Source: an uncultured Lachnospiraceae bacterium
GTDB lineage: Bacteria > Bacillota > Clostridia > Lachnospirales > Lachnospiraceae
Direction of reading: 5' to 3'
Assembly (NCBI GenBank): GCA_947063675.1
Contig: CAMSTM010000015.1
Span: 1 to 36,933, forward strand
DNA length: 36,933 nt
The notes under the pieces were generated by a model. The model was not told the DNA's origin, did not search any database, and worked only from the letters and a program-made list of their open reading frames with translations. This document shows positions 2,717-34,832 of this stretch, piece by piece; the first letter of the stretch is position 1; every line of letters begins with the position of its first letter. Position numbers and translations under genes: made by a program.

Positions 2717-5700
2717 TTATTCCTCGTCCTTCCTCTTAACAATCAGGTAAACTGCAATTCCAACCGCCGCGCTGGCGAGCAGAATAATCGCAATGATTGC
2801 CGCCGCCTTTACCGGTTCTTTCGCCGGCGTTTCCTCCTTTGCCAGGGCCATCGTCTCGATATCCTGTATTCTGGCCTGTTCAAATTGTTCAGCCTTTTCC
2901 GCAAGCAGATTTTCTTTCGTGTTATTGCTGATGATAATCACATAATCGGAAGCATGTGAAAATGCAAAAGCCGCTTCCTTTGTGCTGCTGATTTCAGAGG
3001 CGCACATAAATTCAAAAGCCTCCGCATCTTCATTATAATAAAACAGGTTCGCATACTGGCCGACTTCCGCATCCTCTAATTTTACGGAAAGCTGCATCGT
3101 AAATCCGAATTCGCCGTCATGGGCAAGGGCCATTTCTACATATTGCTCATTTTCAGTCAGTATTTTCAGCTTGTCTTTCGGTATCCGGCTGTCGCCTAAT
3201 GTCACTTTCAGGTCGATATCGCTGAACTCCTCTGCATTTATTTCGCTTCCGTCAATTGTCCAGCTTGCATTATCGCTGACCTTAAGAACAACCTCCGTTC
3301 CCTGTTCGCTAATCTGCTTTAGGGTCTCCGCATAAATCATTCCTGTCTTGCTCATATCCATGATAACGCTCTCCCCGTCGTCAGAAAGAGTATGAGGCTT
3401 TGGCGTTTGAGCTGTTATCCTGATACCGGAAGACGAGGTGTTGCCAGCCGCATCTGCTGGAGAATTTTCAGAACTGCCGGCCGGAGGATTCTCATCAGTG
3501 CCTGTCATTGCCGCGGGTGTTGACGGAATCTGCTGTCCGCTGCCGCCCTGTCCGTTATTATTATTGTTTTGTTCCTGGTTCTCATTGCCGTTCTGACTGT
3601 TATTATTGTCCGGGTCATTATTTTCATTTTGTTCCGGTCTGTTTTCAGGCGCCGGGTCCACAGGCTTATTCTCAGAACCTCCCGCTGCGGTCGGCGCTGC
3701 CGTCGGTGTTGCTTTTGGCGTAGCCGTAACCGAAGGGTTTGCCGTGGACTCCGGCTTCGCTGTTGCCTCTGCCGCAGGAGTATTTGTCGGCTTAACCGTC
3801 GGCTTTGATGTGGGCTTTTCGGTCGGTTTCAACGTCGGTTTTACAACAGGCTTCTCAGTGGCTTCAGGCTTTTCAGACGGTTTGACCGTTGCAGTCGGCT
3901 TTGCCGTTACAGCCGGCGTTGCCGTTGCCGCAGAATCATTATCCGGAACTGCCGTTGGTTTCTCCGTTGGCATACCTGTCGGCCTTGTTGTCGCAGCCGG
4001 CTTTCCCGTTGGCGTTGCCGACGGCCTTGTTGTCGCGGCCGGTTTTTCTGTTGGTGTCGGTTTTAATGCTGGCGTCGATGACGGTGTCACGGCAGGCTTC
4101 GTCGTCGGCGTTAATGTCGGTGTCGCTGTAGGCTTTAGTGTGGGCGTCGCTGTAGGCTTTACCGTAGGTGTCGCCGTGGGCCTTTCTGTCGGCGTCGCTG
4201 TAGGTTTTACCGTAGGTGTTGCCGTGGGCTTTTCTGTTGGCGTTGCCGTGGGCTTTTCTGTTGCTGCACTTTGACCGGGCACAGGGCATGCCGCCGACGG
4301 CATATTGTCGTAAACCGGAATCTTAAACACAAAGGAATTGTTCAGGGAACCGGTTTCCACATAAGCCCTTCTCACCATGGAAGATTCCGTTTCGGGAGCC
4401 GAAATGTTCTGCATATATTGATGGGTAAATAAAGTACCGTCGCTGTTGTCCACATCAAATTTCTGCAGATACAGCGTATCCTGTCCTCTCAGGATATAAT
4501 TTTTTGCGATAATCCCTGCTCCGCCCTTCAAAGACGCATAGTGGGAGTTCCACCCTTCCTTGACGGCCCTTGCCAGCCCCGATTCAATTACCTGTTTTGT
4601 TGTTGTACCGGAAGCTCCGATATTGTAATAATTATAATAGCCCTTATATGCCGGCACTTCCGTATAATTTCCGGAAATCAGAGGAGACTTTCCCTCTCCC
4701 TGCTCCTGATAAACACGGCACGCCAGATGAAAGGGGCTTACCTTTAAGGACACGCCTATCTGGAAAAAGGCCTCCGCATAGGACATGCCGGCACCCGGCA
4801 CCTCCCCTTTCATAAAAGTGCTCTTTAATATATTCTGCACCGCCGATTTGGAATGATAGGAAGGATTATAAGTCAATTGTTCAAACTGAAAAACTCTGGT
4901 CTCGTCCAGAAAATTTCTGGGATCCAGATAGTATTTTACCGCCTGCTCGGAAGCATAATACCACCCGGGGCTGTGCCGCTCCTTGCGGTATGCTTCCCCC
5001 TTACTGCTGTGAACCAGGCTTCTGTCCTTATAGCATTCTTCCTTAACCACTCTTGACCAGTCGAGTTTTGTGTTTTGTCTTACAAAAATCCAGTCGGGGT
5101 GGGCCTGTTTTAATCGAATCAGCTTATCCTGATAGGAGGCTGGAAACTGCTCGATATCAGGGTATCCTCCTGTGGCGGCAAACACAGACGTTTTGGGGAA
5201 ATAGGTATCCTCCCATTCCAGAAAATGCTCGTTGGAATAGGCCAGATAATCCCGCAGCACATAGCCTTTGAAAGCCGTCCCGCCTTTCTCAAAAGCCACC
5301 TGATACCAGAGGTTGAATTCATCATCCACTTCTACCCCTTTGATAACTGTCATTGCACCTGAAGGGATACTGGCCACTGTCTCTCCGTCAAAGTCCGCCG
5401 CGTCCTTCACATCGTAGCTGTCGCAGAGATAGACAAGCGCCATCAGAGTTTCCTCACCGGCAAGATTTTCCAAATCTTCCTGCGCCTGCCTTATGTATGC
5501 CCAAAGCTCCTCGTCCTCTTCGGAATCCATTTCAGGCGCCGATTCCTCTCCGTCTTTTTGGCTTCCGTCTTCTTCAAATTCCTCTTCATTTTCTATATCT
5601 GTATCCTCTTGACCATCCTGGTCATCTTCTTGACCGGCCTCCTCATCTTCTGTTCCTTCAATAGAAACCGTGTCGTCCGTCTCTGATGCCCATGCCACAA

Positions 5701-5770
5701 AACCTGACTGCAAAAAAATAACCATGCACAACAGAAACGCTAAAATACTTTTTAATCTTCTTTTGTTCAT
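2717..5770 (-). CDS. Secreted/anchored N-acetylglucosaminidase (GH73-like) with TPT-rich repeat linker and C-terminal TM anchor
   Basis: Signal peptide, acidic region, SH3-like segment, glucosaminidase-like core (HPDWIFVRQNTKLDWSRVV..., YYNYYNIGASG, SGLARAVKEGW), TPTxKPTA repeats, C-terminal TM plus KRKDEE. Confidence 0.82.
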   Translation of the reverse strand: MNKRRLKSILAFLLCMVIFLQSGFVAWASETDDTVSIEGTEDEEAGQEDDQDGQEDTDIENEEEFEEDGSQKDGEESAPEMDSEEDEELWAYIRQAQEDLENLAGEETLMALVYLCDSYDVKDAADFDGETVASIPSGAMTVIKGVEVDDEFNLWYQVAFEKGGTAFKGYVLRDYLAYSNEHFLEWEDTYFPKTSVFAATGGYPDIEQFPASYQDKLIRLKQAHPDWIFVRQNTKLDWSRVVKEECYKDRSLVHSSKGEAYRKERHSPGWYYASEQAVKYYLDPRNFLDETRVFQFEQLTYNPSYHSKSAVQNILKSTFMKGEVPGAGMSYAEAFFQIGVSLKVSPFHLACRVYQEQGEGKSPLISGNYTEVPAYKGYYNYYNIGASGTTTKQVIESGLARAVKEGWNSHYASLKGGAGIIAKNYILRGQDTLYLQKFDVDNSDGTLFTHQYMQNISAPETESSMVRRAYVETGSLNNSFVFKIPVYDNMPSAACPVPGQSAATEKPTATPTEKPTATPTVKPTATPTERPTATPTVKPTATPTLKPTATPTLTPTTKPAVTPSSTPALKPTPTEKPAATTRPSATPTGKPAATTRPTGMPTEKPTAVPDNDSAATATPAVTAKPTATVKPSEKPEATEKPVVKPTLKPTEKPTSKPTVKPTNTPAAEATAKPESTANPSVTATPKATPTAAPTAAGGSENKPVDPAPENRPEQNENNDPDNNNSQNGNENQEQNNNNNGQGGSGQQIPSTPAAMTGTDENPPAGSSENSPADAAGNTSSSGIRITAQTPKPHTLSDDGESVIMDMSKTGMIYAETLKQISEQGTEVVLKVSDNASWTIDGSEINAEEFSDIDLKVTLGDSRIPKDKLKILTENEQYVEMALAHDGEFGFTMQLSVKLEDAEVGQYANLFYYNEDAEAFEFMCASEISSTKEAAFAFSHASDYVIIISNNTKENLLAEKAEQFEQARIQDIETMALAKEETPAKEPVKAAAIIAIILLASAAVGIAVYLIVKRKDEE
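3930..4275 (-). repeat. Degenerate 24-bp coding tandem repeat (KPTATPTx units)
   Basis: Protein ...TEKPTATPTEKPTATPTVKPTATPTERPTATPTVKPTATPTLKPTATPT...; DNA shows repeating gtaggctttaccgtaggtgtcgcc-like units. Confidence 0.85.
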
Positions 5771-8698: not shown

Positions 8699-8910
8699 AC
8701 TCGCGCCGCGCCTCATGGGAATGCAGGCAGTCCCGCGCGGCTCATTGCTCGCGCCGCTCGGCTGTCGCCTCGCTGTACGCGGCATTCGTCAGATGCGTGT
8801 GCAAGCAGTCCCGCGCGGCTCATTGCTCGCGCCGCTCGGCTGTCGCCTCGCTGTACGCGGCATTCGTCAGATGCGTGTGCAAGCACCCGCGCCTGACTCA
8901 TTGCTCGCGC
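8699..8910. repeat. GC-rich tandem repeat, 78-bp period: two complete copies (8727-8804, 8805-8882) flanked by degenerate partial copies
   Basis: gcagtcccgcgcggctcattgctcgcgccgctcggctgtcgcctcgctgtacgcggcattcgtcagatgcgtgtgcaa occurs twice identically; partial copies at 8699-8726 and 8883-8910. Confidence 0.93.
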
Positions 8911-18637: not shown

Positions 18638-19126
18638 TTATTTCTGTCTTTTTTCATACCGCTTTTTTAAAGCTTCATATGCCCTGTAAACCAGATAGCC
18701 CAAAACCGCCCCGAAACAGTTGAGGAGAATATCGTCCACGTCAAATGCCCCGAAAGCGCTGAAAAGCTGGAAAACCTCTATACCCACCACAAGAAAAAAT
18801 GCCTGAAACAGCATCACCCAAAAGCATTTCTCCCTTTTTATCACATAGGGCAGAAGAAAGCCAAAGGGGACAAAGGCAACTATATTTCCCACCAGATTTT
18901 CAAAGCTGTTTAATTTATAGGAATAATCTATATACATACGTATGGTTTTAAACAACGTAAAATTAGCTGTATCAAGCCCCTCCAGAATCACTTCCTTCCG
19001 CCAGGAGGCTGCAATCGCCTGCAGCTGTTCCAGAGGGTATTTAAAAATAATCACTTTAATCAGCACCAGCAGATAAAGAAAAAAAATGAGTCTGACATGT
19101 TTCCCAAGAAACTGTCTGATATTCAC
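18638..19126 (-). CDS. VanZ family protein
   Basis: NLVGNIVAFVPFGFLLPYV, GIEVFQLFSAFGAFDVDDILLNCFGAVLGYLVY; GTG start overlapping truA stop. Confidence 0.88.
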   Translation of the reverse strand: MNIRQFLGKHVRLIFFLYLLVLIKVIIFKYPLEQLQAIAASWRKEVILEGLDTANFTLFKTIRMYIDYSYKLNSFENLVGNIVAFVPFGFLLPYVIKREKCFWVMLFQAFFLVVGIEVFQLFSAFGAFDVDDILLNCFGAVLGYLVYRAYEALKKRYEKRQK

Positions 19127-19935
19127 TAATAACGAACCTCCATCAATGTAAGTCCTTTCGCGGGAACCAGTTCCCCGGCGTTTTCGCGCCGGCCCGACCT
19201 GAGAATCTCCGCGATATCCTCAGGTTTTCTCTTGTGTAATCCCACTTCCAGAAGTGTTCCGGTCATAATCCTGACCATATGGTACAAAAAGCCGTTTCCG
19301 CTGTACCAGAAACGAATTTCATCCTGTACCCCCGCTGTTTTCATGGATGCGCTCGCCGCCTGCTCTATCCGAATTTCATCAATTGTGCGGACCGTAGACT
19401 TTTTCCCCTTTTTCGCGGAGGTAAAAGCCTTGAAATCATGAGTCCCGATAAGGCAGGGCAGAGCCTTTTCCATGGCTTCAATATCCGGCCTCTCTTCCAG
19501 AATATGCACATACCGTCTGTCAAATACATGGGGAATACTGGAATTTACCACCCGGTAGCAGTAGGTCTTTCCTTTTGCGTTCAGGCGGCTGTGAAACCGC
19601 TCCGGCGCCTCATCTATGGAAATCACCGCAATGTCCTCGGGAAGATAAAAATTCATATATTCCATTATTTCCCCGGCGCTTTTTATTTTATTCGCCGGGC
19701 TTTCTCCGCCGTCCGCCCCGTTCTTCTCTGTATTTATGTGAAAATTCGCCACCTGCCCCAGCGCATGGACGCCGGCGTCCGTTCTTCCCGATGCGTCAAC
19801 CTCGATTTTCTGTCCCGTCATTTTGGACAATACTGCTTCCAGCTTTGCCTGTATGGTGTTGTCCGTGTTCCCCTGTTTCTGCCAGCCCTGGTATCTTGTC
19901 CCCTCATACTGCAAAATTATTTTATAGTTTGCCAT
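19126..19935 (-). CDS. truA: tRNA pseudouridine synthase A
   Basis: YKIILQYEGTRYQGWQKQ, DASGRTDAGVHALGQVANF, HDFKAFTSA; start at MANYK with GGGAGG RBS. Confidence 0.95.
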   Translation of the reverse strand: MANYKIILQYEGTRYQGWQKQGNTDNTIQAKLEAVLSKMTGQKIEVDASGRTDAGVHALGQVANFHINTEKNGADGGESPANKIKSAGEIMEYMNFYLPEDIAVISIDEAPERFHSRLNAKGKTYCYRVVNSSIPHVFDRRYVHILEERPDIEAMEKALPCLIGTHDFKAFTSAKKGKKSTVRTIDEIRIEQAASASMKTAGVQDEIRFWYSGNGFLYHMVRIMTGTLLEVGLHKRKPEDIAEILRSGRRENAGELVPAKGLTLMEVRY

Positions 19936-20100
19936 TATACCTCCCAGGGATTTTCCCTCATTCCAGTTCCGCAAGCTCCCTTCCGGCACCGTTTCGGCGG
20001 ACAAAACTTCCGTCTGTTTGCACTGCCGTAAGTTTGTCCGGGCACCGTCCGGGCGCTTGCTGTTCCTGTTCCGTATCTACACTTCCCAGGGATTTTCCTT
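19936..20100. repeat. Dispersed structured element copy A (core 19964-20054) bracketed by a 23-bp imperfect direct repeat (19936-19958 and 20078-20100)
   Basis: Direct repeats tatacctcccagggattttccct / tacacttcccagggattttcctt (20/23 identical); inner stem ggacaaaactt/aagtttgtcc; shared blocks with copy B near 31376-31465. Confidence 0.75.
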
Positions 20101-21060
20101 CCCCTCCACGAAATACTTACAGCCCATAAGGGAATCCCTCACCACCGTGTTCACGCAGTCGTCAGTGTAAAATGCCATGTGGTGGCTTACCGTCACATTG
20201 GGAAAGCCCCTCAAAACCGCCAGTTCCCTGTTATTCAGTATATCTGATTTATGATCGTAATAATACAGCCCGAATTCATTTTCCACCACATCCAGTCCCG
20301 CGCCGCCGATTTTGCCGCTCTCGATTCCTGAAATCAAAGCCTCCGAGTCAATCAGAGCGCCTCTTGCTGTGTTGACAATCATGACGCCGTCCTTCATCTT
20401 TGAGACGGTCTCCGCGTTTATCATATGGAAGTTATCGTCTGTAAGCGGCGCATGCAGAGTAATCACATCCGCCTGCCTCCAAATCTCGTCCAGCGTCACG
20501 TAGGGTACTTTCGACGCTTTCACTTCTTCATTTTCATACAAATCATGGGCAAGCAGCCTGCAGCCGAATCCGGAAAGATTTTGAAGCACCATCCGTCCTA
20601 TTCTTCCGGTGCCGATAACGCCCACCGTCAAATCCTTCAGTTCCCTCCCCTGTATTCCCTTAAGGGAATAATCCTGTATGTTCGTGCGTTCCATGATACG
20701 CTTCATTTTACGAATCGTCATGAGAATCAGCATTACCGTATAATCGGCGACGCCGCAGGGGCCGTAGGGTGCGTTGGCAACCGTTATTCCAAGCCTTTTT
20801 GCCGCCTTCACATCAATATGGTCGTAGCCTATGGTTCTCGTAGTGATATACTTTACGCCATAACCGGCAAAGACCTTGAGAAGCTCCTCCGGCATTCTGG
20901 ACGTGAGAATGTCTATGCACTGTGAGTCCTGTGCCAGAGACGCATTTTCCTCATCCGGCGCATCGGGGCAGAGTACCAGCTCTATCCCCAGCTCTTTTCC
21001 GTATTTTTCAAACAAAGCCTTCTCGTCAAAGGCTCTGCAGTTATAAACCGTAACCTTCAT
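20077..21060 (-). CDS. D-isomer 2-hydroxyacid dehydrogenase (D-lactate dehydrogenase-like)
   Basis: TRTIGYDHIDVKAAKRLGITVANAPYGPCGVADYTV, GVIGTGRIGRMV, VNTARGALIDSEAL. Confidence 0.92.
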   Translation of the reverse strand: MKVTVYNCRAFDEKALFEKYGKELGIELVLCPDAPDEENASLAQDSQCIDILTSRMPEELLKVFAGYGVKYITTRTIGYDHIDVKAAKRLGITVANAPYGPCGVADYTVMLILMTIRKMKRIMERTNIQDYSLKGIQGRELKDLTVGVIGTGRIGRMVLQNLSGFGCRLLAHDLYENEEVKASKVPYVTLDEIWRQADVITLHAPLTDDNFHMINAETVSKMKDGVMIVNTARGALIDSEALISGIESGKIGGAGLDVVENEFGLYYYDHKSDILNNRELAVLRGFPNVTVSHHMAFYTDDCVNTVVRDSLMGCKYFVEGKENPWEV

Positions 21061-31367: not shown

Positions 31368-31488
31368 CCGATTATCAGTTCCGCTACAGCCCTCCCGGCA
31401 TCCCCTTGTCTGGAAGGATTTCCGGCCGTCTCAGCGTCCTGAAATCCTTCCGGCGCCGTCCGGGCTTTCGCCGATTATTAGTTCCGCT
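31368..31488. repeat. Dispersed structured element copy B (core 31376-31465) with flanking 18-bp direct repeat
   Basis: ccgattatcagttccgct (31368-31385) / ccgattattagttccgct (31471-31488); inner perfect 11-bp inverted repeat ggaaggatttc/gaaatccttcc; shared blocks with copy A. Confidence 0.75.
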
Positions 31489-34584: not shown

Positions 34585-34717
34585 AAAAAAACCTCCTTTG
34601 AATTCATCACAGGAGGAGAGTTCAATTCTTATAAATGCGTGATTTTAATTATTAGAAGGTATGAAACAATTATAGAATAATAGTTTACAGTTATAAAATC
34701 ACGGCATTTACAAAAAT

Positions 34718-34812
34718 CTGCTTCCCTACGCCGGTATTATCCGGTTCAGGTAATGAGGGTCTGCATGCGACTTTTTCGTTCAACATGCCATCTCAGCGAA
34801 AGCTCCCCTAGC
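34718..34812 (-). ncRNA. TPP riboswitch (THI element)
   Basis: Minus strand TAGGGGAGCTTTCGCTGAGATGGCATG...GCATGCAGACCCTCATTACCTGAACCGGATAATACCGGCGTAGGGAAG: CTGAGA, ACCTGAACCGGATAATACCGGCGTAGGGAA core. Confidence 0.96.
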
Positions 34813-34832
34813 GACTTATTTAATTTTTAATT

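Follow-up and report, generated by a model that had tools for sequence, protein, structure and literature searches.

The locus studied here raises the question of whether a direct repeat on either side of an intergenic spacer is the scar of an insertion. It lies in a 36,933-nt stretch of DNA from an uncultured Lachnospiraceae bacterium (the window, i.e. the whole stretch analysed), in which the genes for a D-isomer 2-hydroxyacid dehydrogenase and a TruA-type pseudouridine synthase (both assigned by Pfam) are separated by a spacer with a 23/24-bp repeat at its ends. The features of the junction are as follows.

20077..21060, minus strand: 2-hydroxyacid dehydrogenase gene (Pfam PF02826/PF00389; 327 aa), ending ENPWEV-TAG with the stop at 20079-20077
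19126..19935, minus strand: truA (tRNA pseudouridine synthase; Pfam PF01416), ATG at 19935-19933
20078..20101, minus strand: upstream repeat copy GAAGGAAAATCCCTGGGAAGTGTA, the dehydrogenase C-terminus, with the former Shine-Dalgarno sequence (SD) degraded to GGGAAG
19936..19959, minus strand: downstream repeat copy GAGGGAAAATCCCTGGGAGGTATA, with the working truA SD GGGAGG at 19940-19945; missing in the sister genome G023

An earlier note on this DNA proposed that the two genes had once overlapped and that insertion of a "142-bp unit" had duplicated their junction.

The direct repeat

The dehydrogenase, on the minus strand, terminates at 20077 with GAAAATCCCTGGGAAGTGTAG. The two repeat copies, offset by 142 nt, are identical at 21 of 24 positions, share a 15-nt core (GGAAAATCCCTGGGA) and exactly abut the insert. 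Alignment confirmed that the three differences are all transitions, and the second copy does read ENPWEV-stop, overlapping the truA ATG as TATAATG. The best match between the flanks of the element within the spacer (copy A, below) scored 18, compared with a mean of 7.3 (sd 1.7, 99th percentile 12) for random flank pairs from the same genome, and so the repeat noted earlier is real and not due to chance. Over all element copies the own-flank mean (7.24) equalled the random mean (7.25), and the flank repeat of copy A is unique among the approximately 50 copies of the genome. Chance or convergent similarity might be entertained since both segments contain, or once contained, the SD GGGAGG; however, with 15 contiguous identical bases and a score far above that of random flank pairs, this origin is exceedingly improbable, and we regard it as refuted by the random-flank comparison.

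The spacer contains a copy of a dispersed hairpin element

When the spacer was used as a query in a genome search, dispersed relatives were recovered, including a second copy in the window (copy B).

19960..20064, minus strand: copy A of the element, 105 nt (covariance model R1, 84.9 bits, E 1.4e-22 in the window; covariation)
19960..19972, minus strand: conserved unpaired tail GCGGAACTGGAAT of copy A, formed by (near-)invariant columns of the 14-copy alignment
20065..20076, minus strand: degenerate tail-like remnant ATACGGAACAGG 5' of the copy A hairpin, like the family tail at 11 of 14 positions (TTGCGGAACTGGAA vs ATACGGAACAGGAA)
31372..31475, minus strand: copy B, directly before the SD CGGAGGG of another gene (model R1, 93.1 bits; ortholog in G023, L264)

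The ~105-nt alignment of 14 copies describes an imperfect hairpin with compensatory changes in 17 of 28 pairs; a further count for the 28-pair hairpin gave 21 pairs with such changes. Among 54 distinct rows, standard pairs make up 92.7% of the pair cells, and changes on both sides are present in 208 cells as against 58 in shuffles. The stem arms begin GC..GC near the element ends, and 5' tail repeats are present in 17 of the copies counted. The presence of 87 G-U pairs against 38 A-C mismatches, in a structure prediction that allowed G-U, is at most suggestive of strand-specific selection on the RNA. Exact matches to GCGGAACTGGAA number 32 in the genome and zero for the reversed control. Copy B itself bears 18-nt terminal direct repeats (AGCGGAACTRATAATCGG), and the orthologous G023 site is filled.

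Copies were counted with model R1, built on the aligned copies, which gave about 50 in the window genome (G000). The element was found in 10 of the 38 genomes of the genus and was missing from 28; among about 300 Lachnospiraceae genomes sampled, a further seven, all from different genera, also carried it. G002 (97% complete) carries at least 48 copies and G022 carries 10. A plasmid search for the element returned no match and a phage search one weak, unconvincing 34-nt match; two viral contigs show the tail-SD pattern in a surrounding context that is not the element. Spread on phages or plasmids thus has no convincing match in its favour. At Rfam gathering cut-offs the window gave no match to the element, the sole hit being a TPP riboswitch elsewhere (RF00059, 61.9 bits, 34706-34819, minus strand), and a search of five element loci gave sub-threshold chance matches only. 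Literature searches, which covered open-access papers, found no description of the family.

Other repeats were seen in the window and in related genomes. Three tandem GC-rich units of ~78 nt (GCAGTCCCGCGCGGCTCATTGCTCGCGCCGCTCGG...), the first two 95% identical, lie at 8715-8910 and belong to another repeat family of the genome, and degenerate 24-bp/6-bp tandem repeats at 3699-4267 form a low-complexity protein linker in a large minus-strand ORF (2717-5770). Many places in G023 and G037 bear a second dispersed repeat (GGGGCCCGCGAAGCGGGAGGATGCCTTATC...), which often occurs in pairs ~92 nt apart and neighbours the hairpin element at loci L219 and L223.

Element copies lie in sense orientation directly before SDs

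The element is sense to the downstream gene, and in nearly all copies 0-6 nt separate the end of its tail from the SD. Among the G000 copies, 47 were classed as terminal; 43 of these are followed at 4-24 nt (median 13) by the start of an ORF at least 60 codons long, and none is antisense to SD and start. The four exceptions comprise two tandem-internal copies mis-sorted by the simple rule (L214 and L283), one preceding an ORF slightly below the length cut (L213) and one with no ORF by the rule within 40 nt (L225). In other genera the element has the same SD-adjacent sense placement, and one of these copies precedes an rplF-like gene. The tail-to-start distance of copy A (24 nt, and 14 nt in G023) is the longest in the genome, as would be expected if a segment had been added there. 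The mean unpaired probability of the SD was 0.61 with the element and 0.55 without it, a difference that was not significant (p = 0.28).

Solo tails, i.e. GCGGAACTGGAAT directly before an SD without the full hairpin, were observed in G000 at C2:51451, C6:4094, C14:33827, C21:28796, C37:12959, C55:6400, C91:7829 and C101:7381. They are possibly remnants of the element, or its seeds.

The junction in related genomes

G000 belongs to the genus that includes Parablautia intestinalis. In the protein tree it is sister to G023 (Bacterium 1xD8-48), whose dehydrogenase is 99% identical to that of G000, and G037 is next, with support of 1.0 for both groupings. Across most of the genus, the C-terminus of the dehydrogenase is ENPWEV(K), and truA starts with TTG 3-4 nt after the stop, its SD being the E-V codons (GGGAGGTA) inside the dehydrogenase. 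Because the W-E-V codons read TGGGAGGTA, an SD, the truA SD sits within the upstream gene and the conserved ENPWEV C-terminus doubles as that SD. The two genes were therefore once packed end to start, as the earlier note had suggested, and the compact, element-free junction that it predicted for relatives is the state of most genomes of the genus. Unrelated longer spacers occur at this junction in several lineages (G014, G018, G026, G029 and G007).

In G023 the dehydrogenase stop TAG is followed by an element shrunken to 38 nt and then by AACGGAGGGGACAG-GTG (AACGGAGGGGACAGGTGGCAAAC), with no second ENPWEV copy. This remnant is detected by the covariance model and preserves the stem by a C-G to T-A change (CAGCAAGC/GCTTGCGG vs CAGTAAGC/GCTTACG). 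The G037 junction, TAA-GACGGAGGCGCTAA-GTG, has no element, and has a separate SD and GTG start like those of G023 (GACGGAGGCGCTAAGTGGCAAA). The spacer is indeed an insertion: it belongs to a dispersed family and is missing from the outgroup G037; the "142-bp unit" holds as an inserted unit and, more specifically, contains the ~105-nt hairpin, but its reading as the source of an insertion scar is not supported. G023 has the element without the repeat, and so the element predates the split of G000 and G023 and occurs independently of the repeat. The same spacer beside a different flank had been named in advance as the observation that would count against duplication of the junction by the insertion itself, and this is the case in G023, where the element occupies the identical position with a different 3' flank and no repeat.

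We compared the G000 sites with those of G023 and G037 stretch by stretch. About 18 of the G000 element sites are also filled in G023. The sites empty in G023 are L193 (GTTAACA followed directly by GGAGG) and L224 (CAGATGAG followed directly by GGAGG), the tail alone is present at L284_1383, L227, L249, L248 and L233, and a shrunken hairpin is present at L245, L250, L257, L222 and the truA site. In tandem arrays, which comprise 2-3 units, the number of units differs between the species. Apart from copy A, no flank duplication of ~20 bp was found at the filled/empty pairs or at other element sites, where own-flank similarity equals that of random pairs; the target-site duplication of a MITE is thus absent from the other copies and is rejected as a rule of the family.

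Origin of the direct repeat

The repeat probably arose by a later local duplication, which overwrote the truA SD segment beside a family element that had inserted without target-site duplication. We infer the template switch, the order of the last steps and the mode of mobility in the following model. A mobile palindromic family (~105-nt hairpin with a single-stranded tail) would insert directly 5' of SDs, in sense and without target-site duplication, and would then expand in tandem and contract between its tail repeats. Before G000 and Bacterium 1xD8-48 diverged, one copy would have entered between the dehydrogenase stop and the truA SD. The hairpin would have shrunk to 38 nt in Bacterium 1xD8-48, and in G000 the SD segment that follows the element would later have been overwritten by ~22-24 nt copied from the dehydrogenase end. 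A plausible cause of this duplication, and the mechanism that we hold most likely, is replication template switching at the hairpin via short GAGGG/GGAAAA homology. The duplication would have restored to truA the SD GGGAGG, which elsewhere in the genus lies mostly within the last codons of the dehydrogenase. The GAGGG right after the copy A tail occupies the resident-SD position of other copies, and the copied part may have been just GGAAAATCCCTGGGAGGTRTAR, joined at short homology; a copied part limited in this way would account for one of the three transitions. Selection for ATG over GTG could underlie the change from TAG to TAA, and one further change stays without explanation.

Alternatively, the insertion could itself have duplicated the junction in the ancestor that G000 and G023 share, either as a long target-site duplication or as a tandem duplication including the junction, with G023 later losing or overwriting the downstream copy. 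The downstream copy keeps GTA TAA, the common genus form, whereas both sister dehydrogenases end GTG TAG, which taken alone suggests a duplication older than their split. In addition, the downstream GGGAGGTATAA is nearer to the common genus form than the present dehydrogenase end of either sister, the repeat abuts the 3' side of the element exactly, as in a target-site duplication, and compact gene overlap is common in the genus. However, G023 has the element with another 3' flank, and the element-free G037 resembles G023 in its separate SD and GTG start. The occurrence of a separate SD and a GTG-GCA start in both sister and outgroup makes this the likelier ancestral state of the clade, with the junction polarised by one sister genome and the 3' flank similarity of G023 and G037 beyond the SD being short. 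Furthermore, no other family copy is flanked by such a repeat, and clean empty sites such as that of L193 show no duplication. An ancestral duplication is on balance somewhat unlikely, and we favour the later local duplication.

Relation to known repeats and route of mobility

ERIC/IRU and Correia (CE/NEMIS) elements are palindromic repeats of ~100 nt that may be part of transcripts and influence mRNA. The element is likewise a ~100-nt palindromic repeat, the comparison being by description; to our knowledge, those elements show neither an SD-locked one-way orientation nor solo-tail remnants. REP/REPIN sequences with RAYT transposases are short dispersed extragenic palindromes with hairpin transcripts, tandem clusters and excisions (PMC3116915, PMC3733652). 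The element resembles them in being a set of dispersed extragenic palindromes with hairpins, tandem clusters and excisions, and differs in its ~105-nt length, single long imperfect hairpin, one-sided tail, strict sense placement beside SDs and lack of a linked Y1 transposase, and no GTAG/CGTC tag is evident in it. BOX, RUP and SPRITE of Streptococcus pneumoniae are small, interspersed, lineage-restricted repeats with RNA structures and modular or tandem arrangement; for BOX and RUP, target-site duplications and an excess of copies between convergent genes have been reported (PMC3049150). By published description the element is similarly small, interspersed, structured, lineage-restricted and tandem in a Gram-positive genome; unlike BOX and RUP, it makes no target-site duplication and its copies lie only upstream of genes beside the SD.

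The strength of the covariation, the strictly sense orientation and the constant spacing to the SD would also suit a cis-regulatory RNA inherited by vertical descent, i.e. a translation-controlling leader and not a mobile repeat. This is very unlikely, as the element lies before unrelated genes, is lacking in most of the genus (28 of 38 genomes), is present, shrunken, tail-only or missing at orthologous sister sites, and forms tandem arrays of varying number, and as SD accessibility does not differ significantly with its presence. Elements of the IS200/IS605 type use single-strand HUH insertion 3' of a short target, and a one-sided junction at GGAGG (CCTCC on the other strand) suggests insertion of this kind. 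A REPIN or MITE moved by an IS200/IS605-type Y1 (RAYT-like) transposase with 5'-CCTCC, the SD complement on the opposite strand, as its recognition sequence would fit this fixed junction, the hairpin without target duplication and the single orientation. However, no Y1 transposase match was found in the carriers G002 and G022, and the element was present in 0 of 12 Y1 loci within the stretches examined. Y1 transposases do not track the family, and neither the family search nor linkage supports such a mobiliser, which we consider unlikely. The element may instead represent, as a tentative reading, an undescribed class of mobile hairpin repeat that targets the SD in a fixed orientation, leaves no target duplication and is mobilised by neither of the known routes (RAYT/IS200 and DDE-MITE).

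Implications

The SD-locked, orientation-locked hairpin repeat family is a larger finding than the 23-bp repeat from which the question arose. The junction shows the undoing of gene packing: an SD within the upstream coding sequence was separated from its gene by an insertion and, in the model that we favour, rebuilt by a local duplication. Dispersed bacterial palindromes usually lie anywhere outside genes. A family confined to sense sites upstream of SDs, with about 50 copies and with many filled, empty and remnant pairs across sister species, is a clean natural experiment on the movement of small repeats and on the tolerance of operons to insertions. If it is indeed a mobile repeat that targets SDs, it could enter compact operons, including those of ribosomal-protein genes, without breaking them.
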